Shown: positions 2,361 to 32,339, numbered from the stretch's first letter. The stretch: 35,756 nt of DNA from Opitutia bacterium (GCA_947458705.1 CANHAH010000015.1:1-35756), one strand, 5' to 3'. Notes: a model not told the origin generated them from the letters alone. Made by a program: numbers and translations.

Positions 2361-2475
2361 AGGGTAATTGGGTTGCGCCGACGATGGCGGAGTCTGCTTC
2401 ACCCGCGAGCCGTTATTTGCGAGTATGCACTGGCCACTCGTGTCGGACGCCAACTAGATTTCAGTCACCTCTTTT

Positions 2476-3975
2476 ATGAAATATTCTACGCACATCGAGA
2501 ACCCTCATGTTGTTCTAGTCGGCAGTGGCATCATGTCCGCCAACCTCGCAGCTTTGCTCAAGCGCCTCGATCCCAAGCTCACGATTCAGGTCTACGAAGT
2601 CACCGAGGATCTCGCTCAGGAAAGCTCCAACGGCTGGAACAACGCCGGCACGGGCCACGCCGGCATCTGCGAACTCAGCTACACGCCCAACCGCGAACCG
2701 GACGGCTCGGTCAACGTCAGTAACGCGATCAAGATTTTTGAGCAGTTCGAATACTCCAAACAGTTTTGGAGCTATGCCATCGCCCAAAGGATGATCGATC
2801 AGCCCAAGGAGTTCATTAACCCGGTCCAACACCTCAGTTTCGTCCACGGGCAGGATCAGGTGGATTACCTAAAGGCCCGGCACGCCGGCCTCTCTGCGCA
2901 CCATTTTTTTCGCGCAATGCAATACACAACCGATCGCGCGACTATCGGGCGCTGGGCTCCGTTGCTCACCGAGCAACGCGCTGAGGGACCTATTGCAGCG
3001 ACCAAGATGGACTCGGGCACCGACGTAAATTTCGGCAATATCGCCGGCAAGCTCTTCGCTTGGCTCTCGCGCCAATCCGGCTGCGGCATCGCGAGCCACC
3101 ACCGCGTCACCGATCTCAAGAAAATAGCCGTCGGCTGGGACGTAAGCATCCGTGACCTTGGCACCGGCGCCATACGTCACAATCGCGCCAAGTTTGTCTT
3201 CGTCGGCGCTGGTGGCGGCAGCCTGCATCTCCTCCAAAAATCCGGCATCCCCGAAGCGCGCGGCCTCGGAGGTTTCCCCATAGGCGGTCAATGGCTCGTC
3301 TGCGAAAACCCCGCGATCGTCGAACGCCACCAGGCCAAGGTCTACGGCCAAGCACTCGACGCCGCGCCGACGATGGCAGTACCGCATCTCGATTCCCGTA
3401 TCCTCGACGGCAAAAAAACACTCCTCTTCGGCCCCTTCGCCGCTTGGACGACCAAGTTCCTGCATCGCAAAGGCAGCATCTGGGACCTCCCTGGATCCGT
3501 CCGACTACATAATCTTACCACGCTGCTCAAAATCGGCGCGAGCAATCTTCCGCTCGTACGCTACCTCGTCCAACAAGGCACCCAAAGCATGGCCGACCGC
3601 ATGGCGGTGCTGCATATTTTTTATCCCGCCGCCAAAGCCTCCGACTGGAAACTCATCGACGCCGGCATCCGCGTCCAAGCGATCAAAAAAACCGACGGCG
3701 AGGCCGGCATCGTACACTATGGCACCGAAGTCATCACCGATTCCGAGTGCACAATCTCCGCGCTCCTTGGCGCTTCGCCTGGAGCCTCCGTGTGCGTTCA
3801 TATCGTGCTCGAGGTCATAAAAAAATGTTTCCCTGATTTAGTTAACTCTCCCGAGAGCCGCGCGCGCCTTAAGGAGATGATCCCGACCTTCGACGTGGAT
3901 ATTAAACTTCCAGAAAACGCCGCGTTCTTCCAAGCCCACAGCGACCAAGCTGAGAAAAATCTTCAGCTCATCTAA
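2476..3975 (+). CDS. mqo: Malate:quinone oxidoreductase
   Basis: Membrane-associated FAD enzyme that oxidises L-malate to oxaloacetate and passes electrons to quinone, replacing or supplementing soluble malate dehydrogenase in the TCA cycle. The 499 residues match the family length. The N-terminal FAD-binding dinucleotide fold shows GSGIMSA (residues 16-22), and the characteristic NNAGTGHAGICELSYTPN segment follows around residues 56-75. Further Mqo signatures include GTDVNFGNIAG and, near the C-terminus, LLGASPGAS. The ATG at 2476 begins just before the FAD fold, with no clear Shine-Dalgarno upstream. Rhamnulokinase starts 19 bp after the stop, so the two may share a transcript although they belong to different pathways. 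Confidence 0.95.
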   Translation: MKYSTHIENPHVVLVGSGIMSANLAALLKRLDPKLTIQVYEVTEDLAQESSNGWNNAGTGHAGICELSYTPNREPDGSVNVSNAIKIFEQFEYSKQFWSYAIAQRMIDQPKEFINPVQHLSFVHGQDQVDYLKARHAGLSAHHFFRAMQYTTDRATIGRWAPLLTEQRAEGPIAATKMDSGTDVNFGNIAGKLFAWLSRQSGCGIASHHRVTDLKKIAVGWDVSIRDLGTGAIRHNRAKFVFVGAGGGSLHLLQKSGIPEARGLGGFPIGGQWLVCENPAIVERHQAKVYGQALDAAPTMAVPHLDSRILDGKKTLLFGPFAAWTTKFLHRKGSIWDLPGSVRLHNLTTLLKIGASNLPLVRYLVQQGTQSMADRMAVLHIFYPAAKASDWKLIDAGIRVQAIKKTDGEAGIVHYGTEVITDSECTISALLGASPGASVCVHIVLEVIKKCFPDLVNSPESRARLKEMIPTFDVDIKLPENAAFFQAHSDQAEKNLQLI

Positions 3976-3994
3976 AAACTCACGCTCCTGCCCC

Positions 3995-5422
3995 ATGCCC
4001 ACGATCTATACCGCCGCCGTCGATTTCGGCGCCACCAGCGGCCGCGTCATCCTCGGCGCTTGGTCCAAAAATCGTCTCACGCTCAAAGAGGTACACCGCT
4101 TCCCCAATACCTTCCGTACTCTCGCCGGCCACGATTACTGGGATGTTGGCACGCTCTGGTACGAAGCGCAGACCGGTCTGCGCAAGGCCGTCACCGCCCT
4201 TCCTCGCGGCGCGAAAATTTCCTCCGTCGGTGTCGACGTCTGGGGCGTGGACTTTGCCCTCGTCAACGACGTGGGCCGCCTTGTCTTCCCGATTCACGCT
4301 TACCGAGATACTCGCACCCAACCCGGCCTCAAACGTCTCGCACACACCCGCGCCGCCTTGGAACGCATTTACGCAGCCACCGGTATTCCCAACGTCTTCT
4401 ACAATTCCTCGCTCCAATTAGAGGAAACCGTAGCCTCCTGTCCCGCCATCACCGATCTGGCGACGCGCTGCCTTTTTTTGCCCGATTATTTTAATTTTCT
4501 TCTTTCGGGCCGCATGGAAAACGAGTTCACCATCGCGAGCACCACGCAACTCATCGACGTGCATTCCAACGATTGGTCGCGTGCCGCGTTGAAACACTTT
4601 CGCCTGCCGCCGCAGTGGTTCACCAAGCCGATTCTTTCCGGCACCCGCCTAGGCCAAGTTAAAAATTTCCCCGAGCTTGCGGGCACGCAAGTCATCGCCG
4701 TACCCGGCCACGACACCGCGGCTGCTTACGACGCAATGCCCGCCAACCCCGACGGTTCCGATCTTTTCCTTAGCTCGGGCACGTGGTCGCTCGTCGGTTT
4801 CGAGAGCGATCGCCCGGTCCTCGGCGCCGACGCCCACGCCGCGCGTATCTCCAACGAACGCATCGGCGACGGCCGCTACCGCCCGCTCACCAACGTCATC
4901 GGCCTTTGGCTGCTCGAAGGCACCTTGAAGGACTTCGCGTCGCGCCCCGCCGACGACCAAGCCTGGACCGCGCTCATCACCGCCGCCGAAAAACTCCCCG
5001 CGCCCACCACGCTTCTCGACGTCACCGATCCCGCTTTTACGAATCCGACTTCGATGAAAGCCGCCATCGACGCTCAACTCAAACGCCGCAAGTTACCCGC
5101 TCCGAAAACCCTCGCCGCTTACACGCGCCTCATCTGCGACTCCCTCGGCCGCGGCCACGCCGAGGCGATGCGGGCCTTCGAGAAAATGGCGGGCAAAAAA
5201 TTCCGGCGCATTCTCATCGTCGGCGGCGGTTCTAAGAATCGCTTGCTCTGCCAAGCCACCGCCGATGCCGCCGGAATTCCGGTGGTATCCTTCGCCCTTG
5301 AAGGCACTGCCGTCGGCAACATCGCGAGCCAACTCATCGCGCTCAAAGCCGTCAAAAACCTGCCGACCTTCCGCCGCCTACTCGGCGCCAATCTGCAGCA
5401 GAAAATTTACGCACCACGCTGA
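3995..5422 (+). CDS. rhaB: Rhamnulokinase (FGGY carbohydrate kinase)
   Basis: Cytoplasmic FGGY-family sugar kinase, most likely phosphorylating L-rhamnulose to rhamnulose-1-phosphate. The N-terminal phosphate-binding loop DFGATSGR begins at residue 10, matching the rhamnulokinase form (Asp-Leu/Phe-Gly-Ala-Ser/Thr-Ser-Gly-Arg). The expected catalytic base is Asp240 in VPGHDTAAA, followed by the SSGTWSLVG adenosine-side motif and a C-terminal GGGSKN motif. At 475 aa it is of normal length. The assignment to rhamnulose rather than another ketose rests on these motifs and on the rhamnulose-1-phosphate aldolase fusion encoded 2.2 kb away. It lies 19 bp after mqo and ends just before a strong bidirectional terminator at 5441-5476. 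Confidence 0.92.
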   Translation: MPTIYTAAVDFGATSGRVILGAWSKNRLTLKEVHRFPNTFRTLAGHDYWDVGTLWYEAQTGLRKAVTALPRGAKISSVGVDVWGVDFALVNDVGRLVFPIHAYRDTRTQPGLKRLAHTRAALERIYAATGIPNVFYNSSLQLEETVASCPAITDLATRCLFLPDYFNFLLSGRMENEFTIASTTQLIDVHSNDWSRAALKHFRLPPQWFTKPILSGTRLGQVKNFPELAGTQVIAVPGHDTAAAYDAMPANPDGSDLFLSSGTWSLVGFESDRPVLGADAHAARISNERIGDGRYRPLTNVIGLWLLEGTLKDFASRPADDQAWTALITAAEKLPAPTTLLDVTDPAFTNPTSMKAAIDAQLKRRKLPAPKTLAAYTRLICDSLGRGHAEAMRAFEKMAGKKFRRILIVGGGSKNRLLCQATADAAGIPVVSFALEGTAVGNIASQLIALKAVKNLPTFRRLLGANLQQKIYAPR

Positions 5423-5440
5423 TCTCCCGCCGTTCCCGCC

Positions 5441-5476
5441 AAAAAAAGCGCGAGCTCTACGACTCGCGCTTTTTTT
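5441..5476. terminator. Bidirectional terminator between convergent rhaB and the M13 peptidase gene
   Basis: A7-GCGCGAG (5441-5454) pairs perfectly with CTCGCGC-T7 (5463-5476) around an 8-nt loop. The A-run and T-run make it a good terminator in both directions. It sits between the ends of rhaB (+) and the M13 peptidase gene (-). Confidence 0.9.
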
Positions 5477-5501
5477 GCCCGCGGCCTAACGCCACTGCGG
5501 A

Positions 5502-7511
5502 TCACCAGATCGTAACTCGCTCTGCAGGCGTACGGCGCATCGCTGCACCCTCGGGCACGCCGAAGGCGGCGGCAAATTCGTCGAGATTGGTGAGCGGACC
5601 ATTCGCCCGGAATTCACCGGGTGAGTGCGTATCGGTCATCACGCGCACGCGAAGATTTTCCGGGCGGATGTTGTTTCGCCAGATCGTCGCCCAGCTGAGA
5701 AAGAACCGCTGCTCGGGCTTAAAGCCGTCAATGGGCGTGCGTGGCTGGTCGGCGAGCGCCCGTTGCAGCGCCGCGTAGGCCACCTTCACGCCGCCGAGGT
5801 CGGCAATGTTTTCGCCGAGCGTGAGCTCGCCGTTAACATTGAGGCCGGGTAACGCCGAGTAGCCGGCAAATTGTTTAACCACCATCGCTGCGCGTTCCTT
5901 AAACTTGGCGGCACTCTCCGGGGTCCACCAGTCGGTGAGATTGCCCTGCGCGTCGTATTGACGACCTTGGTCGTCAAAGCCGTGCGTGATCTCGTGGCCG
6001 ATCACCGTGCCGATGCCGCCGTAGTTCACCGCATCGTCTGCTTTGGGGTCGAAGAAAGGCGGTTGCAAAATACCCGCCGGGAACGCGATGCCGTTCACCG
6101 AGGGACTAAAGTAGGCGTTCACCGTCGGCGGGGTCATGCCCCACTCGGTCTTGTCAACGGCTTTGCCGATCTTCTGCAGATTACGGCGGGCCTCAAACTC
6201 GGCGGTGCGGAACACGTTCAACACATACGGACCGCGGTCGATGACCACTGCGCTGTAGTCCTTCCATTTGTCGGGGTAACCCATTTTGACCGTGAAAGCG
6301 TCTAGCTTAGCGAGCGCGCGCGTTCGCGTAGTCTCGTCCATCCAATCGAGCGTTTCCAACCGCGCACGGAAAACAGCGCGCAGATCGGCGACGAGCTTTA
6401 GTACACGGGCCTTGGCCTCCGGCGGAAAATATTCGGCAACGTAGAGCTGGCCGAGTGCCTCGCCCAAGGACGAGTCGGTCTGGGCCACGATGCGTTTCCA
6501 GCGCGGTTTGAGTACTTTCACGCCGTTGAGCGTCGTGCTAAAGAACGCGAAGTTCTCATCCACAAACGATGCGCTAAGATGCGGCGCCGCCGCGCGCAGC
6601 AGGTGCCAGCGCAGGTAGTGCTGCCAATCGGCGACGGGGGTCGCGGTCAGCTCGATAGCAAAGGCTTTGTAAAAATCGGGATGCGCAAGATTGATCTCGG
6701 TAAACACCGGCGCGTCCACCTCTTTAAAGAAGGCCGCCCAGTCGAGTTCGCCGGTGGTCTTCGCCAAGTCGGCCACCGGCATCTTGTGGTAGCTCGCGTA
6801 GGGGTTGCGCAGAAGGACGCGCTTCAGCGAGGCGGTGGCGAGCTTAGTCTCGAGCGTCAGCACGGCGTTCGCCGCCGCTTCGGCCACCGCCGGGGAATCG
6901 CCGAGCAGGCCAAACATCTTGGTCACGTGGACAAGGTAGGCGCTACGGATAGTTTTCGATTTCTCGTCGTCGTGCAGATAGTAGTCGCGGTCCGGCAACG
7001 AGAGCCCGCCCTGCCGGAGCTGGGCGATCTCGAGGTTGCTGTTTTTTGCATCAGCTCCGCTGAAGAAACCGAAGCCGGCCCGGATTCCGGCCCGGTGCAG
7101 GCGCGCGATTTGGGCCATGACATCCGCCGGGGTCTTGATCGCGGCGATGTTGGTGAGGTGAGGCGTAAGCGGCCTCGCGCCAGCCGCCTCAATCGCGGCT
7201 TCGTCCATACCGGAGGCATAAAAATCACCGACCATTTTTTCGATCGCCGTCGGTGTCTGGGCCACCGCCACACGCTCGAGGATTGTGCGCAGGTTGAGTT
7301 GGTTGTTCTCTTGCAAAATCGAAAAACCGCCCCAGCGGCTCTCCTCAGCCGGCACCGGATTGTTCTTCAGCCAGCTACCATTCGCATAGCGGTAGAAGTC
7401 ATCTTGCGGGCGAACTTCGGGATCGAAGTTCTTGGGATTAATTTCGGCGTAAACGAGAGAGCTCAACGCGAGGACAATGGCGGCCTGAGCCGCTCGGATA
7501 ATAATTCGCAT
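5502..7511 (-). CDS. M13 family zinc metallopeptidase (PepO/neprilysin-like), exported
   Basis: Secreted or periplasmic zinc endopeptidase of the M13 family, which cleaves oligopeptides. A hydrophobic signal peptide spans residues 1-22, with probable cleavage after VYA. The M13 N-terminal region begins at about residue 28 with the typical DFYRYANGSWLKN segment. The zinc site HEITH is at 506-510 and the third-ligand motif GENIADLGG at 566-574 (Glu567). The substrate-binding NAYF motif precedes the zinc site, and the protein ends in Trp like other M13 enzymes. At 669 aa the length is normal for bacterial members. The gene lies between the rhamnose genes but has no visible link to sugar metabolism; a terminator at 7573-7600 separates it from the upstream aldolase gene. 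Confidence 0.93.
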   Translation of the reverse strand: MRIIIRAAQAAIVLALSSLVYAEINPKNFDPEVRPQDDFYRYANGSWLKNNPVPAEESRWGGFSILQENNQLNLRTILERVAVAQTPTAIEKMVGDFYASGMDEAAIEAAGARPLTPHLTNIAAIKTPADVMAQIARLHRAGIRAGFGFFSGADAKNSNLEIAQLRQGGLSLPDRDYYLHDDEKSKTIRSAYLVHVTKMFGLLGDSPAVAEAAANAVLTLETKLATASLKRVLLRNPYASYHKMPVADLAKTTGELDWAAFFKEVDAPVFTEINLAHPDFYKAFAIELTATPVADWQHYLRWHLLRAAAPHLSASFVDENFAFFSTTLNGVKVLKPRWKRIVAQTDSSLGEALGQLYVAEYFPPEAKARVLKLVADLRAVFRARLETLDWMDETTRTRALAKLDAFTVKMGYPDKWKDYSAVVIDRGPYVLNVFRTAEFEARRNLQKIGKAVDKTEWGMTPPTVNAYFSPSVNGIAFPAGILQPPFFDPKADDAVNYGGIGTVIGHEITHGFDDQGRQYDAQGNLTDWWTPESAAKFKERAAMVVKQFAGYSALPGLNVNGELTLGENIADLGGVKVAYAALQRALADQPRTPIDGFKPEQRFFLSWATIWRNNIRPENLRVRVMTDTHSPGEFRANGPLTNLDEFAAAFGVPEGAAMRRTPAERVTIW

Positions 7512-7572
7512 GTGGGCAAACTTTCTCCGGCCTGCGCACCGCGCAAGCCCGTTATCGTCAGCTTACGCGCAG

Positions 7573-7600
7573 AAAAAAGCCCCGGCCTGGGCCGGGGCTT
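7573..7600 (-). terminator. Rho-independent terminator for the aldolase/dehydrogenase gene
   Basis: A perfect 10-bp GC-rich stem (7577-7586 with 7591-7600) closes on a 4-nt loop. Read on the minus strand it is followed by a T-run (the A-run at 7573-7578). It lies 24 bp past the stop of the minus-strand gene ending at 7624. Confidence 0.85.
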
Positions 7601-7623
7601 GCGCAAAATTAAACTAACCGTGC

Positions 7624-9816
7624 TCAGCGCAGGAACGCTTCGTGCAAGCCGCCGTCAACGGTAACAATCTGGCCGGTGGTCTTGCTCAGGCGCTGCGACA
7701 CTAAGAGAAAATACGCTTCCGCCTGGTCGGCGGGCGTGATCGGCGCTTTCGTGAGCGTTCGGTCGGCGTAAAACTGAGCCAATTTCGATACGAGGGAATC
7801 GGTCGCTTCGTCGTCCTTATAAGGAATGTTGTATTTAGCGAGCGAGCCAATGACACGATCACGCGGGAACATCGCGGAGCCTTGGACCACGGTGGCGGGA
7901 GCGACACCGTTCACGCGCACCAGCGGCGCGAGTTCCATGGCGAGTTCACGCACGAGATGGTTGGCTGCGGCTTTTGAGCAATCATAGGCCAGCGAACCCT
8001 TTTTTGCGACGACGGCGTTGGCCGAAGTCGTGAGGACAAGTTGGCCCTTGAGACCTTGTTCTTTCCAAGTCTTGAGCGCTTCATCACCGACAATGTAACT
8101 GCCCGTGACGTTGACGCCAAAGGTAAACGCCCACTTGTCGTCAGGGATATGGCCCGTGGTATCACTCGGCCAGAAGACGCCAGCGGTGACGCAGATCGAG
8201 TCGAAGCCTCCGTAGGCGAGCGCGACGTCGTCAAGCATGGCGCGCACGCTAGCGCGATCAACGATGTTGGCCGCCAGACCGAGCGCGGGACCGCAGGCAG
8301 AGAGTCCGGAGCCGGCGACGCCGATACCAAGGCCGTATTTGTCGGTAATCTCTTTGGCCGTGGCTTGCGCAGTCTCGATCTTCATGTCGACGCACACGAT
8401 GTGAGCACCTTCTTTGACAATGCGGTGGGCGGTTTCTTTGCCGATACCAGAGCCGGCACCAACGACGATGACGACTTGGCGCGCGAGCTCTTTTTCGGCG
8501 GGCATACGCTTCAATTTAGCTTCTTCCAAGAGCCAATATTCAATGTCGAAGGCTTCCTGCTGCGGGAGCGCGATGTAGGTGTCGATCGCCTCGGCGCCGC
8601 GCATGACCTCAACGGCGCAATTATAAAATTCGGCCGTGACGCGGCTTTCAGATTTGTCTTTGCCCCACGCGATCAGACCAACACCTGGGATGAGAACAAC
8701 CGTGGGATTCGGATCGCGCATTGCCGGCGAGTTGGCGTGTTTGCACTTGGTGTAGTAAGCCGCGTAGTCCTTGCGGTAAGCCTCGAGGCCGGCGGCGAGT
8801 TTTTGCTTCAGCGCGGCGATGTCTTCGGCCTGGGGATTCCAGTCCACGTAGAGTGGCTTAATCTTGGTACGCAGGAAATGGTCGGGGCAGCTTGTACCAA
8901 GTTCGGCGAGACGAGCGGCGTCTTTGGAATTCACGAAACGTAGAATTTTTTCGTCGTCCTGTACGGTGCCGATGAGGCGCTTGGCCTTGGAAACTTGACC
9001 GCGGAACCACGGGAGGATGGCGGCGAAGGTCGCGCGACGTTGCTCAGGCGTAAGCGTGGCGTATTTGGCGCCGCCAAAAGCCGAGGCGTCGCCGCCCTTG
9101 GCCTGGTATTTAGTCTCGATAAAGGCGGAGGCTTTCTCGATGCAATCGAGTGTATAGGTATAGCAGGCCTTTTCTTCGTTATCCCAAGAGATGAAACCAT
9201 GCTGGCCCATCATGATAGATTTCACCTTCGGATTTTTTTGGACGATGGCCTGCATCGCGAGACCGAGCTCAAAACCTGGACGCATCCATGGCACGTAGGC
9301 CATTTCTCCACCAAAAATTTCGTGCGTGAGTTTTTCACAATGCTTAGAAGCCGCGATCGAAATGATCGCGTTGGGGTGCATGTGATCGACGAATTTTGCG
9401 GGTAGAAAACTGTGTAGTGGCGTATCAATCGAGGAAGCGCGGGGATTAAGGTTAAACGTGGCGTGCGCCTGCATGCCGACCATATCATCCTCAGCAGGAG
9501 CCTTTAGACCCTTGTCAGGGCGGGCTGCGTAGAGCTGCTGCATATCGAGCAATTTTTGCTGGTATAGAGAGGAGAAATTTTCGCGCGTACTCGTACGGAG
9601 ATCGCCGCCCGAGCCTTTGACCCAGAGTACTTCCGTGGACTGGCCGGTGAGCGGATCTTTCTCGGAAATTTTGGAAGAGGTATTACCGCCACCAGTGTTG
9701 GTGATACGTTGGTCGCTACCAAGAATGTTGGAGCGATAGACGAGGCGGCCGACAGGATCGAGGGCGGTAGCTTTGGCGTCGTCCCAGAGGAAGTTCACGA
9801 ATTTATAGGATTTCAT
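7624..9816 (-). CDS. rhaD: Bifunctional rhamnulose-1-phosphate aldolase / short-chain alcohol dehydrogenase
   Basis: Fusion enzyme of L-rhamnose catabolism. The N-terminal class II aldolase half splits rhamnulose-1-phosphate into dihydroxyacetone phosphate and L-lactaldehyde; the C-terminal SDR half is expected to oxidise or reduce lactaldehyde. The aldolase half (about residues 20-420) has GGGNTSSK near 42-49 and metal ligands His145, His147 and His206. The SDR half (about 445-730) has the nucleotide motif GAGSGIG at 453-459 and an intact triad of Ser598, Tyr611 and Lys615. The 730 aa length matches the known RhaD-dehydrogenase fusion family, recognised here from overall sequence as well as motifs. 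It is transcribed on the minus strand 24 bp after a second class II aldolase, so the two probably form one operon. Confidence 0.95.
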   Translation of the reverse strand: MKSYKFVNFLWDDAKATALDPVGRLVYRSNILGSDQRITNTGGGNTSSKISEKDPLTGQSTEVLWVKGSGGDLRTSTRENFSSLYQQKLLDMQQLYAARPDKGLKAPAEDDMVGMQAHATFNLNPRASSIDTPLHSFLPAKFVDHMHPNAIISIAASKHCEKLTHEIFGGEMAYVPWMRPGFELGLAMQAIVQKNPKVKSIMMGQHGFISWDNEEKACYTYTLDCIEKASAFIETKYQAKGGDASAFGGAKYATLTPEQRRATFAAILPWFRGQVSKAKRLIGTVQDDEKILRFVNSKDAARLAELGTSCPDHFLRTKIKPLYVDWNPQAEDIAALKQKLAAGLEAYRKDYAAYYTKCKHANSPAMRDPNPTVVLIPGVGLIAWGKDKSESRVTAEFYNCAVEVMRGAEAIDTYIALPQQEAFDIEYWLLEEAKLKRMPAEKELARQVVIVVGAGSGIGKETAHRIVKEGAHIVCVDMKIETAQATAKEITDKYGLGIGVAGSGLSACGPALGLAANIVDRASVRAMLDDVALAYGGFDSICVTAGVFWPSDTTGHIPDDKWAFTFGVNVTGSYIVGDEALKTWKEQGLKGQLVLTTSANAVVAKKGSLAYDCSKAAANHLVRELAMELAPLVRVNGVAPATVVQGSAMFPRDRVIGSLAKYNIPYKDDEATDSLVSKLAQFYADRTLTKAPITPADQAEAYFLLVSQRLSKTTGQIVTVDGGLHEAFLR

Positions 9817-13008: not shown

Positions 13009-13665
13009 TTACAACTTCGCCGGTAAAACCCCGACCACATCTTCGCTGAGCGCCGTCACCGCCGCGCTCAAACGCGAAGCCAACTGGGAAAAATCTTTGC
13101 CATCCCACGCTGTCTCGGGCGCGACAAAACGCCGACGCGCCACCACTTCACCGAGCGCACCGATCCGCGTCACCTCGATCATTGCAACGAGCCGCACCAC
13201 GCCAGAGCCACCGCCGGCAGACAACACGCCTTCGGCACGGATTAAGCGCACGCTGACATCAAAATCACGAGGCTCTTCAAAAGGAAAAGGTTGCACAAAA
13301 ACCCGCCCCACCGTCGGTGAGCTCAACAATTGCGCGCGCAAAGTATGCAAAATTTCTTGCTCGAGTGGTTCCGCCCAGCGCGCCTCCGGAGGAAACGACA
13401 GCTCGTTTTCTCCCGTGCGCACAACCAGCGAACCTTTCTTTAAATAGGGCGCGAGCTCCACGTTTCTCAGACCGATGCGCAATCCGACGTTGATGGATTG
13501 CGCACCTGCGGCGCCCGCTGGAGGCGCCGACAGCACGTAATAACGTGTAGCATCCGCCGTCGGCGCGGGGATGAAGTTACACCCCGTTGCAAGAAGCGCA
13601 TAGACGCCTAAAGTCAGAACCGCCCGCCACCCTAAATCCTGCGTGAAAAATTTTTGAGTGCTCAT
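13009..13665 (-). CDS. ABC-type transport auxiliary lipoprotein (PqiC/LptE-like)
   Basis: Predicted outer-membrane-directed lipoprotein that works with MCE-family lipid transporters. From the ATG at 13665 (218 aa) it has a hydrophobic N-terminus and a lipobox ending in Cys29 (LLATGC). It then shows the family's typical opening of a YYVLSAP strand and an IGLRNVELAPYLKKGSLVVRTGENEL segment, which in relatives carries the conserved P-x-Y-L. The open frame extends upstream to 13923 but overlaps the mlaD-like gene and is Arg-rich there, so the shorter start is chosen. It is the last gene of a four-gene operon, 37 bp after the MCE gene. It may bridge the MCE protein and the outer membrane; this is inference from family and context. 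Confidence 0.82.
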   Translation of the reverse strand: MSTQKFFTQDLGWRAVLTLGVYALLATGCNFIPAPTADATRYYVLSAPPAGAAGAQSINVGLRIGLRNVELAPYLKKGSLVVRTGENELSFPPEARWAEPLEQEILHTLRAQLLSSPTVGRVFVQPFPFEEPRDFDVSVRLIRAEGVLSAGGGSGVVRLVAMIEVTRIGALGEVVARRRFVAPETAWDGKDFSQLASRLSAAVTALSEDVVGVLPAKL

Positions 13666-13702
13666 ACGCGCGATGAAGAAAGTTAAAAGAGGGGAGAATC
13701 GC

Positions 13703-14704
13703 TCAACGCGGTGCCTTCTTACCGGTGAGCAGAGCATTGGGATTACGTTCGAGGAAATCAGCAAGGCGTTGCACCGCATCGGCGGCTTCGGAAAGTTTTC
13801 CGAAGGCCTCGCCGGCGCCTTCACCCAAACCTTGTTGCGCGTTAATGAAACTGCGCAGCGTGAGCGCGGTGGCATTGAAATTCTGTAGCGTCTCCTGCGC
13901 CTTACCGAGGGTAGCGTGGACATCCGCGCCAGCCGTCGAAACCTGGCCGTCGAGCTTCGCTAAGGTCGTGCGAAGATCGACCAGCGTAGCATTGAAATTG
14001 ACGAAAGCTTCCTTGAGCTCAGGTGAACTCGCGAGCGTTTCGACCGCCGCGCCGGTGCGTTGCCACTGCGTGCTTACGCTTTTCAGATCTAGGCCGTCAA
14101 CTTGACGGCGGGTGGTTGCGAGCAAGGTTTTCAGCTCCACAGAGAGTCCGTCGAAGTCTATCTTGCGCACCTTGGAAAGAATCTCGCTCACACTGGCCTG
14201 AAACTCAGAGATCGCCGAAGGCACCGCCGGCACGACGACGTACTTCAACTCTGTCGTCCGGGCATCAGCCGGGAACTCCTTGGGGTTCAAAAAATCCAGC
14301 TCGACAAACAACATGCCCGTCGCGAGTCCCAACACGCCGAGCTGGGCGCGCAGGCCGTGGTCAATCAACGTCTGTAATTCGCCGCGCTCCGCGACGTTGA
14401 TCAACGCGCCCTGACTGTCGGTGAGGGTGTTGCGACTGAATTCGCACGTTACGACGACGACCGAGTGGTTTTTGCGTTCGTCGTAGCGCACTGTGAGATC
14501 GGCCACACGGCCAACGCGCACACCACGCAACTTCACCGGAGAACCGAGATCGAGCCCGTGAATCGACTCGTCGAAATACACCACAAATCGCTGCGGCTTA
14601 GAGAAAAAATTCACGCCGCCAAACGCAAGCAACACGACGATACCGAGCGCAAACGCTCCCAGCGCAAAGGCTCCGACAATGGCAGGACTGACCTTGGTTT
14701 TCAC
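13703..14704 (-). CDS. MlaD-like MCE family lipid-binding protein
   Basis: Periplasmic substrate-binding subunit of a phospholipid transport ABC system. A single N-terminal transmembrane anchor spans residues 8-30. It is followed by the MCE domain (about 36-115), with the conserved LDLGSPVKLRGVRVGRV stretch. A long C-terminal tail of about 200 residues, rich in Leu, Thr and Ala with heptad-like spacing, probably forms the helical or coiled section seen in other MCE proteins. At 333 aa it is longer than E. coli MlaD (about 180 aa) but ordinary for non-enterobacterial MCE proteins. It lies third in the operon, after the ATPase. The lipid transported cannot be told from sequence. Confidence 0.9.
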   Translation of the reverse strand: MKTKVSPAIVGAFALGAFALGIVVLLAFGGVNFFSKPQRFVVYFDESIHGLDLGSPVKLRGVRVGRVADLTVRYDERKNHSVVVVTCEFSRNTLTDSQGALINVAERGELQTLIDHGLRAQLGVLGLATGMLFVELDFLNPKEFPADARTTELKYVVVPAVPSAISEFQASVSEILSKVRKIDFDGLSVELKTLLATTRRQVDGLDLKSVSTQWQRTGAAVETLASSPELKEAFVNFNATLVDLRTTLAKLDGQVSTAGADVHATLGKAQETLQNFNATALTLRSFINAQQGLGEGAGEAFGKLSEAADAVQRLADFLERNPNALLTGKKAPR

Positions 14705-14806
14705 GTAATTTAAAGAAGAATCAAAATTCGGTTAAAAGGACAGCCGGAAGCGACAATGCCAAAAAATAACAATCGTCGATAGCGCCAAGGCTGCGGCCGG
14801 CGGGCT

Positions 14807-15601
14807 TCATAAAATCGGGACCTTGCCCGTGCCGCGCGTTAGAAATTCCTTCACGCGGGGATCCTCGCTCGTCGTCGCGAGCGTCCGCGGCGCGCCTTCG
14901 GCGATGATACCCTGAGCCTGCTTTTCGAGCATGATGACCCGATCGGCGATATCATAAATCGAAGCCAATTCGTGCGACACCACCACAATCGTGGTGCCAA
15001 AAATCGCCCGGATTTCCACAATCAATTCGTCGAGCTTACGCGAAGTTACCGGGTCAAGCCCCGCCGAGGGTTCGTCGAAAAACAAAATCTCCGGATCGAG
15101 TGCCAACGCCCGCGCCAAACCCGCGCGCTTCTTCATACCGCCCGAAATCTCCGCGGGATAATAATCTTCGTATCCACCCAACCCTACTTGCCCGAGTTTA
15201 AGCGCGGATAATTCCTCGATCTCACGGCTCGTAAGCGACGTATATTCTTCAAGCGGCAACGCCACGTTCTGACGCAACGTCAGCGAACTCCAAAGTGCAC
15301 CGCCTTGAAAGAGCATACCGAAATGCCGCAATTGAGCACGGCGCGTTCCTGCATCTGCTTCCGAAAACGGCGCCCCGAGAAACCGCACGCTCCCGGCGGT
15401 CGGAGGATTCAAACCCACAAGATGCCGCAGCAACGTGCTCTTGCCGCAACCTGAACCACCCACGATAAAAAAAATCTCTCCGCGGGCGACGTTGAACGTC
15501 ACATCCCGCAAAATCGTCTGCTCGCCGTAACCACAGACTAAACCGCTCACCTCGATCGCCGGATCGCCGGTCTGAGCATGATTCCGTTTCAGATCGCTCA
15601 T
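14807..15601 (-). CDS. MlaF-like ABC transporter ATP-binding protein
   Basis: Cytoplasmic ATPase of an Mla-type lipid transporter. All nucleotide-binding motifs are intact in the 264 residues: Walker A GGSGCGKST (48-56), Q-loop Gln99, signature SGGMKKRAG (153-161), Walker B ending in Asp176-Glu177, and switch His210. The SGGMKKRAGLARA form of the signature is characteristic of the MlaF/Ttg2A/Mkl group rather than amino-acid or drug exporters. Its ATG overlaps the stop of the upstream permease by 4 bp (15598-15601), indicating translational coupling. The MCE gene follows after about 100 bp. Confidence 0.93.
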   Translation of the reverse strand: MSDLKRNHAQTGDPAIEVSGLVCGYGEQTILRDVTFNVARGEIFFIVGGSGCGKSTLLRHLVGLNPPTAGSVRFLGAPFSEADAGTRRAQLRHFGMLFQGGALWSSLTLRQNVALPLEEYTSLTSREIEELSALKLGQVGLGGYEDYYPAEISGGMKKRAGLARALALDPEILFFDEPSAGLDPVTSRKLDELIVEIRAIFGTTIVVVSHELASIYDIADRVIMLEKQAQGIIAEGAPRTLATTSEDPRVKEFLTRGTGKVPIL

Positions 15602-16725
15602 AGCCCAAGAATGTTAAATGCGACGGCGAAAAACGCGTCGGAAACGATGATCAACAAAATTGCTGTCACCACTGCTGAAGTTGCCGCCCGCCCCACTCCA
15701 GCCGCGCTGCGGTCCGCCTGCAAACCGCGCAAACAACCCGCTAAGCCGATCAATAGGCCAAACGTCAGCGCCTTGAACAAGCCTGTGTTCACGTCCGAAA
15801 GATCAATGATACTCTGAGTCTCAATCCAGTACGCCGCCGGCGGAATTTGGAGCACCCCGAGCGCTACCATCATGCCGCCCAAGATACCTACGCAATTAGC
15901 GTAAAGTGTCAGTAGTGGCATCATCAATCCAAGGGCTACGATACGGGGCAGCACCAAAAAATCTACCGGCGAAATTCCTAACGCAGCGAGAGCATCAATT
16001 TCTTCGTTAGCCTTCATGTTGCCAAGCGTCGCAGCAAACGCCGCGCCTGTGCGCCCCGCCAACACAATCGCCGCCATCATCGGCCCCATCTCGCGCACGA
16101 CCGACAGGCCCACTAGATCCGCTACATAAATATCAGCACCAAATTGCCGTAGCTGCACGGCTGCCTGATAGGCCATGATCAAACCAACTAGAAAACTGAT
16201 CAGGCTTACGATGGGCAACGCCATCGCGCCGCATTGCTGCATCTCGTCGACGCAGTCCCGCCAACGAAACTTATGCGGCAACCGCACTAGACGCCACGCG
16301 CTAATCACGCACTCGCCGACAAACGCGATGATTTCCCGAACTTTTTTCCATGCGTCCTGCGTCGCCAGTCCGACGCTTGTTAAAAAATTCTCCGAGCGAT
16401 CAAACGGCACACTAGTCTCATGCGAAGCGACTAACTGCCCGAGTAAGGTTCGCACCTTCGCCGGCACCGCCTCGAGATCGCAATGCGCCCCATGCGCCCG
16501 ACACCAATGTTGTACTTCAAATAGAAATAACAGCAGGGAAGAATCCCAGCGCTCCACCGCTTCCATCACGACTTTGACGCGAGCTGATTTGTCTAAGCCC
16601 ACGCAATCCGACCAGCGCACTGGCGCGGCCGTGATGCGCCAAACACCTGCCAAAAGCACCGTACAACCTCCCGCCTCCGATTGTACAGTCACACGGGCCT
16701 GCGGTTGATGGACGTTATCGGACAT
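15598..16725 (-). CDS. MlaE-family permease with N-terminal STAS-like domain
   Basis: Integral inner-membrane subunit of the lipid ABC transporter, first gene of the operon. Residues 1-115 form a soluble region resembling a STAS domain (in E. coli the corresponding MlaB is a separate protein). The permease domain covers about 140-375, with several hydrophobic helices and the coupling-helix motif EIDALAALGISPVDFLVLPR. The STAS-permease fusion is a known variant, so no separate mlaB is needed here. The 375 aa length fits such fusions. It diverges from the HAD phosphatase gene across an 87-bp gap that should hold both promoters; no convincing -35/-10 pair was found there. Confidence 0.92.
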   Translation of the reverse strand: MSDNVHQPQARVTVQSEAGGCTVLLAGVWRITAAPVRWSDCVGLDKSARVKVVMEAVERWDSSLLLFLFEVQHWCRAHGAHCDLEAVPAKVRTLLGQLVASHETSVPFDRSENFLTSVGLATQDAWKKVREIIAFVGECVISAWRLVRLPHKFRWRDCVDEMQQCGAMALPIVSLISFLVGLIMAYQAAVQLRQFGADIYVADLVGLSVVREMGPMMAAIVLAGRTGAAFAATLGNMKANEEIDALAALGISPVDFLVLPRIVALGLMMPLLTLYANCVGILGGMMVALGVLQIPPAAYWIETQSIIDLSDVNTGLFKALTFGLLIGLAGCLRGLQADRSAAGVGRAATSAVVTAILLIIVSDAFFAVAFNILGL

Positions 16726-29015: not shown

Positions 29016-29041
29016 CCCAAGAGCGAATCTTACCTCTTGGG
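29016..29041. other. 8-bp hairpin without T-run, upstream of the SDR gene
   Basis: CCCAAGAG (29016-29023) pairs perfectly with CTCTTGGG (29034-29041) around a 10-nt loop. It directly follows the 66-aa frame and precedes the candidate SDR promoter at 29083-29111. It lacks a T-run on either strand, so it could be a protein-binding dyad or an RNA 3'-end structure. Confidence 0.4.
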
Positions 29042-29082
29042 GGCAGGTTGTGGCATTTAAATGTATTTTCTGCAGCGAAGAT

Positions 29083-29111
29083 TTGTCGTCGGACTATTTC
29101 CTCTCTAATTA
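29083..29111 (+). promoter_or_regulatory. Candidate promoter for the SDR-inositol oxygenase gene string
   Basis: TTGTCG (29083-29088) and TAATTA (29106-29111) are separated by exactly 17 bp. The -10-like box ends only 6 bp before the ATG at 29118, so if used, transcription would start at or next to the start codon and give a leaderless mRNA. This fits the lack of a Shine-Dalgarno before that ATG. The -10 match is imperfect. Confidence 0.3.
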
Positions 29112-29117
29112 TAGGCC

Positions 29118-29891
29118 ATGAATTCTACCTTTTCTGCTTCAGCGCCGGCGCCGGTTGTACTCATCGGCGGTGTCACGGGCGGCATCGGCTCCGCCCTAGC
29201 CCGCCGGCTCGCCGCGGCCGGCGTCTCGGTCGCGGGCTATGCGCGCGACGCCGGTAAACTCGCCGCCCTCCAAGCCGAATTGCCCGGATTACTCACCCTC
29301 ACCGCCGAGGCCACCCAGCCCGCCGAGGTCGAAGCCGCCGTCGCTGCCACGGTCGCACATTTCGGCCGGCTAGATGGTTACGTGCACGCCGTGGGTTCGA
29401 TTTTAATTAAAGCCGCCCACCAGACGCGCCCGGAGGAATGGCTGCGGGTCCTAGATCTCAACCTCAACTCCGCCTTCTATGGTTTACGTGCCGCGCTAGG
29501 CCCGATGCAGACCCAAAACCACGGGAGCATCATCTTCGTGAGTTCCGTCGCCGCGCAAGCCGGCTTGCCCGCGCATGAAGCCATCGCCGCCGCCAAGGCC
29601 GGGATCGACGGTCTCGTGCGCTCCGCCGCCGCCAGCTACGCGCCACGCAATATCCGCATCAACGCCGTCGCGCCGGGCCTCGTCGATACACCGCTCGCCG
29701 CCCCACTGCTCGCCAGCGAAGCGGCGCGTGCGTTTTCCGAAAAGATGCACCCACTCGGGCGGATCGGCCGGCCCGAGCAAATCGCCAGCCTTATCGCTTG
29801 GATGCTCACGCCCGATGCGGACTGGGTCACGGGCCAGATCTACTCGATCGACGGCGGCCTCGCGCACCTGCGCCCCCGGCCCAAGGTCTGA
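29118..29891 (+). CDS. SDR family protein lacking the catalytic tyrosine
   Basis: Short-chain dehydrogenase/reductase fold, 257 aa. The nucleotide-binding motif GGVTGGIG is at 17-24, Asn116 is in the NLNSA motif, and Ser142/Ser143 and Lys160 are in place. The C-terminal INAVAPGLVDTPL segment and the ending with TGQIYSIDGG are classic for SDRs. However, the YxxxK catalytic motif reads IAAAK: the tyrosine position is Ile156. The nearest polar candidate is His153. A similar His-Glu-Ala-Ile-Ala-Ala-Ala-Lys arrangement occurs in some SDR proteins, as far as I recall, so this may be a divergent subfamily rather than a dead gene. The inositol oxygenase gene starts 107 bp downstream on the same strand. 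No substrate can be assigned. Confidence 0.88.
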   Translation: MNSTFSASAPAPVVLIGGVTGGIGSALARRLAAAGVSVAGYARDAGKLAALQAELPGLLTLTAEATQPAEVEAAVAATVAHFGRLDGYVHAVGSILIKAAHQTRPEEWLRVLDLNLNSAFYGLRAALGPMQTQNHGSIIFVSSVAAQAGLPAHEAIAAAKAGIDGLVRSAAASYAPRNIRINAVAPGLVDTPLAAPLLASEAARAFSEKMHPLGRIGRPEQIASLIAWMLTPDADWVTGQIYSIDGGLAHLRPRPKV

Positions 29892-29998
29892 GCGCAGCGC
29901 GCATTTTTCGGTGAGTTTGAACAACCTCCGCTGGACTCGGCGGGGCTCTTGGCTCAACGTCGGCGGTACCCCACAGCGTCAATCCCCATCGCACCACC

Positions 29999-30910
29999 AT
30001 GTCCCCTAACGTGAATCCCGCTTCCAGCCAACCCCTCGCTAGCCTCGATGAGTGGGAAGATTTTCTGAAAGACAAATACCCCGAGCCCGCACCGGCCCCC
30101 GCGCGCAAAGCTCCGGCCGTCGGCACCGCGCCCGACAAGCAGAAGGAAGAATTCCGCGTCTACGAAGCCGAGGCGCGGCCCACGGTGCGCGAGTTTTATC
30201 GGCTCAATCACACGCACCAGACGCACGAATTTGCCGTCGCCAAGCGCCAAGAATATCTGGGCCTAAACCGCATGACCATGGGCATCTGGGAGGCCATGGA
30301 ATACCTCAACCAGCTCGTGGACGATTCCGATCCGGACACCGATCTTTCGCAGCTCCAGCATCTGCTCCAAACCGCCGAAGCCATGCGTCGCGACGGCCAG
30401 CCGCGCTGGATGATCCTCACCGGCTTGATCCACGATCTTGGCAAGATCCTCTGCCTTTGGGGCGAACCGCAATGGGCGGTCGTGGGTGATACGTTTGCGA
30501 CGGGGTGTGCGTTCTCCGACAAAAACGTTTTTCCGCTATTCTTTGCCGCCAACCCCGACAGCCAGATCGCGCGTTTCCAGACGCCCAACGGCATCTACGA
30601 ACCCGGCTGTGGCTTGGATAAAGTCATTCTCTCCTGGGGCCACGACGAATACATCTATCACGTCGCGAAAGACTACCTGCCCGCCGAAGGCCTCGCGATG
30701 CTGCGCTACCATAGTTTTTATCCGTGGCACCGCGAAGGCGCGTATGACCAATTCTGCACGCCCGCCGATCGCGCGCTGATGCCGTGGGTTTTAAAATTCA
30801 ACACCTACGATCTCTACACCAAGAGCCACGAAGCGCCCGACGTGAAGATGCTGAAACCTTATTACGAGGAACTCATCCGCGAGTTCTTCCCCGAGAAAGT
30901 GCGTTGGTGA
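29999..30910 (+). CDS. myo-Inositol oxygenase (MIOX)
   Basis: Di-iron oxygenase of the HD-like fold that converts myo-inositol plus O2 to D-glucuronate. Compared with mammalian MIOX from memory, all iron ligands are recognisable: His121 ([11 protein letters not shown]), His145 and Asp146 (HDLGK), His215 (WGHDEY), His238 (RYHSFYPWH) and Asp271 (FNTYDLYTK). Lys149, the HTHQT motif (71-75) and the DDSDPDTD segment (108-115) are also conserved. The 303 aa include an N-terminal extension of about 45 residues rich in Pro and Ala, which replaces the more divergent N-terminus of animal enzymes. MIOX is best known from eukaryotes and occurs in scattered bacteria. Its neighbours are an SDR and a racemase-like gene; the usual bacterial inositol dehydrogenase (iol) genes are not visible. 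Confidence 0.95.
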
Positions 30911-30977
30911 GGCGCGCCCGCACGCCCGCGCGGGAGTTGGACTTGAGCCGCTCACTAATCACGCGCTAAAAACAACG

Positions 30978-31652
30978 ATGCACCTAGGCCTCATCGTTGG
31001 CATCGGTCCGGCGGCGACTGATTTTTACTACCGACATCTCATCCACGCCTTCGCACAAGCGGGCGCGAAACTGGAGCTCACGATGGCGCACGCCGACACC
31101 CCGACCTTGTTGCGCCACCAAGCAAGCGGGAATGCCCGCGGCCAAGTTGAAATCTATCAACAGCTCGCCCATCGCCTAAGCGCGGCGGGAGTAGAGATTT
31201 TGGCCGTCACTTCGATCGCTGGGCATTTCTGCATCGAGGAATTCAAAGCTGTCTCGCCCTTGCCCGTCATCGATCTTGTGACGGAGGTGCGCCGAGAAAT
31301 CTCCGCGCGTAAGTTTAAAAAACTAGGTCTGATCGGGACGCGGGTGGTGATGGAAACAGCCTTTTACGGAGCCATCAAAGAGGTTGAAATCATCGCGCCG
31401 CCGCCAAGCGAACTCACCGCCGTACATGATGCCTATGTCGCTATGGCGAGCGCGGGGGCCATCACCGAGGCGCAACGTCAGGTCTTTTTTTTCGCCGGGA
31501 AAAACCTAATGGAAACAGCGGGGGTCGACGCGGTGATGTTGGCTGGGACGGACCTCGCCCTCGCGTTTCACCAGCGGGAGTCGGGCTTTGCCACTTTGGA
31601 TTGTGCCGCGATTCACGCCGACGCGATTTTTCGGACCGTTCGAACGGCTTGA
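30978..31652 (+). CDS. Asp/Glu racemase superfamily protein lacking both catalytic cysteines
   Basis: Aspartate/glutamate racemase fold, 224 aa, with the typical start LGLIVGIGPAATDFYYRHL and the KKLGLIGTRVVMETAFY segment of the second lobe. In active members two cysteines act as acid and base, in PCNTxH and GCTE motifs. Here the first motif reads VTSIAGH, with Ser79 in place of the Cys, and the second reads LAGTDL, with Gly190 in place of the Cys. The frame is intact, so this is either a lyase/isomerase relative with different chemistry or a non-enzymatic member. Racemase-superfamily relatives include maleate isomerases and arylmalonate decarboxylases, which use different Cys patterns. It lies 67 bp after the inositol oxygenase gene on the same strand. 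Confidence 0.82.
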   Translation: MHLGLIVGIGPAATDFYYRHLIHAFAQAGAKLELTMAHADTPTLLRHQASGNARGQVEIYQQLAHRLSAAGVEILAVTSIAGHFCIEEFKAVSPLPVIDLVTEVRREISARKFKKLGLIGTRVVMETAFYGAIKEVEIIAPPPSELTAVHDAYVAMASAGAITEAQRQVFFFAGKNLMETAGVDAVMLAGTDLALAFHQRESGFATLDCAAIHADAIFRTVRTA

Positions 31653-31718
31653 TCGCAGATCTCAACCTGACTGAATGAGAACGGCGAAGCTTGGCGGGAA
31701 GCGTCGCAGGGTTTTAGA

Positions 31719-32339
31719 GTGCTCAACATGCACCTCGATTTCGCCACGCTCAAACGTCCCGAAGCTTACGCGTGGATGACGACCACGATTCTGCCACGGC
31801 CTATCGCCTGGGTCGCGACGCTCTCCAGCGAGAGCAAAACGAACCTCGCGCCGTTTTCGTTTTTTCAGGCCATCACGGCGAATCCACCGACGTTGATGTT
31901 TGTGCCCGTCAACCAGCGCGACGGCTCGCCGAAAGACACATTGCGCAACATCGAGGCCACGCGGGAATTTGTAGTGAACGTGGTGCCCCACGCGCTCGCC
32001 GAATCGATGAACGCCTGTGCCGCGCTCTTGCCACACGGTGAGAGCGAATTTGAAGCATTTGGCATCGCGGCTGCGCCGAGCACGCACGTGCGCCCGCCGC
32101 GCGTGGCGGCCTCACCGGTTGCGTTCGAGTGCACGCTGCACAGCATCGTGCACATCGGCGAGGGCGCCGGTGCGGCCAATGTCGTTTTTGGGCGCATCCT
32201 TGGGATGCACGTGGACGACCAAGTGATCGGAATCGATGGTCTACCCGACGCGGCGAAACTAGATCTCGTGGGCCGCCTCGGGCGCGAGGATTATGCGCGC
32301 ACGAGCGAGCGTTTCACGATCAAGCGGCCCGATCGTTGA
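31719..32339 (+). CDS. Flavin reductase family protein (FMN-binding split barrel)
   Basis: Flavin reductase-like split-barrel protein, 206 aa, with the family's LPRPIAWVATLS motif (about residues 26-37) and NLAPFSFFQAITANPPTLMF segment, where the flavin binds. Typical members reduce FMN with NAD(P)H or serve as flavin-dependent oxidoreductases; the substrate and partner are unknown. The start is the GTG at 31719, with an AGGG 7 nt upstream, or the ATG three codons later. It follows the racemase-like gene by 66 bp on the same strand and ends 13 bp from the convergent alginate-lyase-family gene. It is the last gene of the plus-strand string starting with the SDR. Confidence 0.85.
   Translation: MLNMHLDFATLKRPEAYAWMTTTILPRPIAWVATLSSESKTNLAPFSFFQAITANPPTLMFVPVNQRDGSPKDTLRNIEATREFVVNVVPHALAESMNACAALLPHGESEFEAFGIAAAPSTHVRPPRVAASPVAFECTLHSIVHIGEGAGAANVVFGRILGMHVDDQVIGIDGLPDAAKLDLVGRLGREDYARTSERFTIKRPDR

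Follow-up and report, generated by a model that had tools for sequence, protein, structure and literature searches.

A myo-inositol oxygenase (MIOX) gene in the genome of an Opitutia bacterium lies within a string of four genes, raising the question of whether these genes together constitute a pathway for inositol or uronate use or are simply neighbours. The string is located in a 35,756 bp stretch of DNA (GCA_947458705.1, CANHAH010000015.1:1-35756), which in its entirety is referred to here as the window. An initial annotation proposed that the neighbours of MIOX may act as one cluster on D-glucuronate or an acid derived from it. Its description of the layout agrees with the ORF calls, in which genes for an SDR-family protein (SDR), MIOX, an Asp/Glu-racemase-family protein (RAC) and a flavin-reductase-like protein (FLR) are co-directional, with gaps of 107 bp (SDR/MIOX), 67 bp (MIOX/RAC), and 66 bp (RAC/FLR). 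The features are as follows:

29018..29117, + strand: SDR upstream region, AT-rich, a putative promoter region
29118..29891, + strand: SDR gene, SDR-family protein of the Tyr-less subfamily, 257 aa
29999..30910, + strand: MIOX gene, myo-inositol oxygenase, 303 aa
30978..31652, + strand: RAC gene, Asp/Glu-racemase-family protein, 224 aa
31719..32339, + strand: FLR gene, flavin-reductase-like split-barrel protein (PF01613), 206 aa
32353..33537, - strand: alginate-lyase-family gene (PF05426), a convergent neighbour at which the string stops

Pfam profile searches place SDR in adh_short_C2 (200.8 bits), MIOX in PF05153 (367.6 bits, cut-off 25, with the catalytic domain covered), RAC in Asp_Glu_race (PF01177; 66.1 bits, cut-off 31), and FLR in Flavin_Reduct (PF01613; 80.4 bits, cut-off 27). 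Translation of FLR may start at either the GTG at 31719 or the ATG at 31728. Elsewhere in the window, inspection by eye shows look-alikes of two genes of the kind used for L-rhamnose, one for a sugar kinase of the rhamnulokinase type and one for a fused aldolase/SDR-type dehydrogenase (3995-5422 and 7624-9816), and of an Mla-type lipid-transport ABC set comprising a permease, an ATPase, an MCE-domain protein, and a lipoprotein (13009-16725).

Judged from the sequence, a single transcript for all four genes is possible, as the short gaps would permit it. A terminator scan found no terminator-like sites in the three gaps, as the initial annotation had also noted, and the number in the region as a whole (7, compared with 5.1, sd 2.2, in shuffles) is within the shuffled range. 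The GC content of the SDR upstream region is 44%, compared with 55–66% in the three internal gaps, and a block 5' of SDR (TTTTTCTGCAcCGgAGATTTGTCGTCGG...ATTTCC) is conserved in the alignment across clade A; a promoter scan of this region identified no consensus promoter 5' of SDR. The dN/dS ratios are 0.04–0.19 across all four genes, reflecting purifying selection and indicating that they encode maintained, functional proteins. The possibility that any are pseudogenes is ruled out by these ratios together with the invariant motifs. Co-direction of four neighbouring genes is by itself unremarkable by chance, such that conservation must supply the evidence for a functional association, and conservation is limited.

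MIOX is most likely an ordinary inositol oxygenase, converting myo-inositol and O2 to D-glucuronate. Alignment to a solved inositol oxygenase (2huo, E 2e-77) places all six di-iron ligands (H121, H145, D146, H215, H238, and D271) and the two substrate lysines (K149 and K275), so the active site is predicted to be intact, as had been proposed. No uronate catabolic genes adjoin MIOX, and in the window's genome a UxaC gene is located directly 3' of a UxaE-like gene on a different contig (C6). From this gene content, MIOX-derived glucuronate can probably enter the hexuronate route, and it would be passed to the UxaC glucuronate isomerase and the UxaE-like epimerase. The presence of MIOX beside uronate genes in bacteria is already known from Francisella sp. 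TX07-7308, where MIOX adjoins uxuB, uxuA, kdgK, kdgA, uxaC, and a symporter gene, and a route from the bacterial MIOX to the UxaC isomerase was proposed (PMC3479022). Both genomes thus carry MIOX and UxaC, but the uronate genes adjoin MIOX only in Francisella.

Elsewhere in the Verrucomicrobiota, MIOX proteins are 65–83% identical to that of the window and their genes are co-directional with their neighbours. At 24 of these loci a Peripla_BP_4 binding protein is the partner, and the further partners are a BPD_transp_2 permease, xylose-isomerase-like proteins, or a LacI regulator with a sodium:solute symporter; in contrast to the window, MIOX is thus accompanied by a sugar ABC transporter or LacI/symporter genes rather than by SDR, RAC, and FLR. 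At L029, L045, L063, L070, and about 20 further loci, the Peripla_BP_4 gene is next to MIOX, with BPD_transp_2 present in nine, likely encoding an inositol importer. A literature search for MIOX with Verrucomicrobia or Opitutaceae returned nothing relevant.

Most of the genomes available for comparison are incomplete MAGs (that of the window, G000, is about 80% complete) with genes called by a simple codon-usage script, and in this set MIOX is present in 32 of 252 family genomes, including 11 of the 13 in the window's genus. The complete SDR-MIOX-RAC-FLR order is found only in the window and two other loci (L010 and L014), all from a portion of a single subclade within one genus of the Opitutaceae, and the four-gene order is therefore not conserved across the Opitutaceae, as the initial annotation had suggested should be examined. 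A further locus (L011) has MIOX-RAC-FLR on a contig that begins at MIOX, and two others (L012 and L013) have MIOX followed by FLR and no RAC, even though the L012 MIOX protein is 98% identical. In a second subclade (L015, L018, and L019) only SDR-MIOX is present, and in L016 and L017 the SDR and MIOX genes are 1.4 and 5.6 kb apart, respectively. SDR and MIOX are both present and linked in 11 of the 13 genus genomes and both absent from the other two; they are thus kept or missing together in all 13 and travel together within the genus, and the sequence of the gap between them is well conserved within clade A. No case of SDR beside MIOX was seen among the loci read outside the genus, and the same genes were not found with MIOX across related genera, as would be the pattern of a conserved MIOX pathway cluster.

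Comparison of loci within the genus suggests how SDR came to adjoin MIOX. In L017 (and L236) three genes separate them: a LacI regulator gene on the minus strand, a TonB receptor gene, and a gene for a 617-residue protein (X617). X617 matches no Pfam family and its similarity to polysaccharide lyases and hydrolases is insignificant, and it may be a distant member of either group. The LacI gene of L017 is divergent from the TonB receptor, X617, and MIOX genes (2458-7928). In L016 the interval contains a truncated LacI gene (78% over 123 aa) along with two broken pieces of X617 (77% and 88%), with no TonB receptor gene, and these LacI and X617 remnants (L016 2845-4103, and likewise in L195) have the appearance of a decay intermediate. 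No trace of the intervening segment remains in the window or in the other subclades. L016 and L017 lie towards the outgroup in the MIOX tree, with moderate support. The same LacI (58%) is also present near a sodium:solute symporter and MIOX in another genus (L022), indicating that the association of LacI with MIOX predates the arrangement in the window's genus. The SDR-MIOX adjacency thus appears to be derived, and the simplest history is decay of the operon segment between them: a divergent LacI/TonB receptor/lyase-like/MIOX operon would have lost its first three genes, and SDR would adjoin MIOX because of that loss.

The right part of the string varies in composition. RAC is related over its full length, at 25–30% identity, to Asp/Glu racemases of the PF01177 fold family (3ojc, 2zsk, and relatives). 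The canonical racemase motif pair, CNTxH and GCTE, supplies the two catalytic cysteines, but in RAC both are replaced, by S79 and G190. Orthologues outside the genus are found in G282 and G283 (66–67%) and in G277 (45%, a copy with two stops), all without either cysteine, and the G282 copy is near an ilvD-type dehydratase gene and away from MIOX. Two of these three genomes (G277 and G283) are MIOX-bearing, which is above expectation (P = 0.02, ignoring relatedness), and there RAC is unlinked to MIOX. Cys-less and one-Cys relatives are common, and Cys-less ones are also found in other Verrucomicrobiota; L218, L219, and L121, for example, encode Asp/Glu-racemase relatives without either cysteine, of the AANTPH/AGTEL type. 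RAC-bearing and RAC-free loci are interleaved in the tree, such that RAC has either been lost at least twice or been spread by recombination, and its distribution within the genus would reflect patchy insertion or loss. An AlphaFold model of RAC from the single sequence (pLDDT 41.5) is too poor for a fold search or for reading the active site. The closest solved relative of FLR is the 2-nitrobenzoate nitroreductase 4z85 (E 1.8e-30). FLR orthologues (76–83%) are on contigs without MIOX in G464, G465, G468, G469, and G470, representing most of the remaining genus, and FLR probably joined the string from another place in the genome. The orthologue in G468 immediately precedes the ATPase gene in an AttH-type ABC operon (L239 1618-2602).

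The SDR protein has a Rossmann SDR domain, with matches to 396 PDB sequences at E values no higher than 1e-15. The catalytic N115, S143, and K160 are present and invariant among close orthologues, and the glycine-rich motif is kept. In the YxxxK motif, the catalytic tyrosine is replaced by isoleucine in the window (I156) and in every orthologue, and by I or V throughout the clade. H153 is invariant, and the motif, HEAIAAAK in the window, is H-(E/D)-A-I-(A/S)-A-A-K in all orthologues. The loss of classic catalytic residues from SDR and RAC described in the initial annotation is thus upheld, and because the substitutions are shared by all orthologues they are not sequencing errors. The idea that either protein was altered specifically for MIOX is ruled out, as the changes are subfamily-wide. 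In FabI-type enoyl reductases the catalytic tyrosine is seven residues before the lysine, a position matched here by His153. Among the matches of the SDR profile to solved structures, the five alignments listed are all of the canonical type and none provides a structure with the Tyr-less motif, and an AlphaFold model built with nine close sequences (pLDDT 54.7, active site <50) is too poor for a fold search or for reading the active site.

SDRs with H-x-x-[IV]-x-x-x-K group in a single clade (support 98/95), separate from SDRs that have the tyrosine and spanning the Verrucomicrobiota and three proteobacterial classes and including plasmid-encoded SDRs of Legionella lytica, Caballeronia, Burkholderia, and Mesorhizobium, the last on a long branch with a variant motif (HASVSMAK). 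The serine and lysine are present in most members, and the asparagine in all except the Legionella SDR. Within the family, SDR orthologues (at least 57%) are present in 38 of the 239 genomes outside the genus, and only one of the 21 MIOX-bearing genomes there has one, compared with 3.3 expected. At nine loci read, SDR comes after a gene for an AttH/CrtC-type lipocalin, and in eight of them the whole operon is present (ABC ATPase, FtsX/MacB-like permease, lipocalin), which SDR typically ends. These Opitutaceae operons carry an orthologue of the window SDR (59–79% identical) with the same Tyr-less motif but, unlike the window, no MIOX. Where ABC-AttH genes are seen in the window's genus, they survive elsewhere in the genome and lack SDR, and none were found in the window's genome (about 80% complete). 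One MAG (G473) has two SDR copies, on C132 (L194) and C56, that are 97% identical to that of the window; one is on a short contig with no MIOX shown, and strain mixture or contamination is likely.

In other lineages, genes for Tyr-less SDRs often have photolyase, B12-MerR, furan-fatty-acid, or haem genes as neighbours, which gives them surroundings of the light or singlet-oxygen stress type. Their neighbours encode a photolyase-related protein, a CFA-type synthase, and an amine oxidase in L257; a MerR regulator, folE, and hemH in L258; CFA synthase, fasciclin, msrPQ, photolyases, and hemH in L262; and a B12-binding MerR regulator and SOUL haem protein in L196, L202, and L207. No light-related genes recur beside the Opitutaceae AttH-SDR operons. 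Annotated SDR genes are part of the RpoE-ChrR singlet-oxygen core regulon and of a light-induced LitR operon (PMC7074977, PMC5507510, PMC9758184). These proteins (RSP_1087, PSPTO_1119, and PME6630) are of the same superfamily as the window SDR and may belong to the Tyr-less clade; their neighbours (photolyase, CFA-type synthase, flavin oxidoreductase, folE) resemble those of the plasmid Tyr-less SDRs, whereas the window SDR has none such.

We conclude, at a probability of roughly 0.78, that the string does not represent a dedicated pathway but brings together genes that evolve independently, in an arrangement that is recent and limited to the genus. The proposal that the neighbours act as one cluster on glucuronate or a derived acid is not supported, given the narrow synteny, the variable presence of RAC and FLR, and the spread of SDR unlinked to MIOX, and a dedicated inositol/uronate pathway is rejected as unlikely on synteny. 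It is nonetheless conceivable that this is a young but real operon, in which an SDR and a RAC with altered sites were recruited for glucuronate or a derived aldonate or lactone, with FLR supplying reduced flavin. Such an operon would account for the co-direction, the short gaps, the conserved gap sequence in clade A, the joint retention or loss of SDR and MIOX in the genus, the purifying selection on all four genes, and the weak RAC-MIOX co-occurrence. However, the Tyr-less site is also found in dozens of genomes lacking MIOX, indicating that SDR was not altered for an inositol/uronate role; near-identical relatives have no RAC at this position, FLR is elsewhere in most of the remaining genus, and the uronate genes are elsewhere too, and we consider a young operon improbable.

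If the genes are instead independent, the role of SDR probably lies in lipid or redox housekeeping and not in the use of inositol. That it is a working oxidoreductase with His153 in place of the tyrosine, acting on a lipid, pterin, or tetrapyrrole-related carbonyl under photo-oxidative stress, is a tentative suggestion that falls somewhat short of even odds. It draws on the retention of the H-x-x-[IV]-x-x-x-K motif in one supported clade with Ser, Lys, and Asn mostly kept, on the B12-MerR, SOUL, photolyase, CFA-type synthase, folE, hemH, and msrPQ neighbours in other lineages, on the annotated SDRs of the RpoE-ChrR and LitR systems (PMC7074977, PMC5507510, PMC9758184), which may belong to this clade, and on AttH-like lipocalins, which both structure and context have tied to oxidative stress and lipid metabolism (PMC2954199). 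Against this, the AlphaFold model has low confidence at the active site, deletion of RSP_1087 leaves the fatty acid profile, including furan fatty acids, unchanged (PMC7380195), and there are no light genes in the neighbourhood of the window SDR. SDR and RAC could also be non-catalytic proteins whose folds are retained for ligand binding or sensing, since each has lost a classically required residue yet is under purifying selection; but SDR retains Ser143, Lys160, Asn115, and the glycine-rich motif, and relatives of RAC with a single cysteine or none are common, which makes this rather doubtful. The racemase superfamily also includes enzymes with atypical sites, such as arylmalonate decarboxylase and an L-Asp/Glu-specific racemase, and these too count against a non-catalytic RAC.

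The Tyr-less SDR clade is conserved across phyla, and its members are currently annotated as FabG-like oxidoreductases. They could represent a distinct, widespread class with H-x-x-[IV]-x-x-x-K in place of YxxxK, a role in membrane-lipid or photo-oxidative stress, and a non-classical proton relay, although for now we would put this forward only as a speculative proposal. The string itself shows that a plausible pathway cluster can arise when a neighbouring operon decays, which calls for caution in guilt-by-association annotation.
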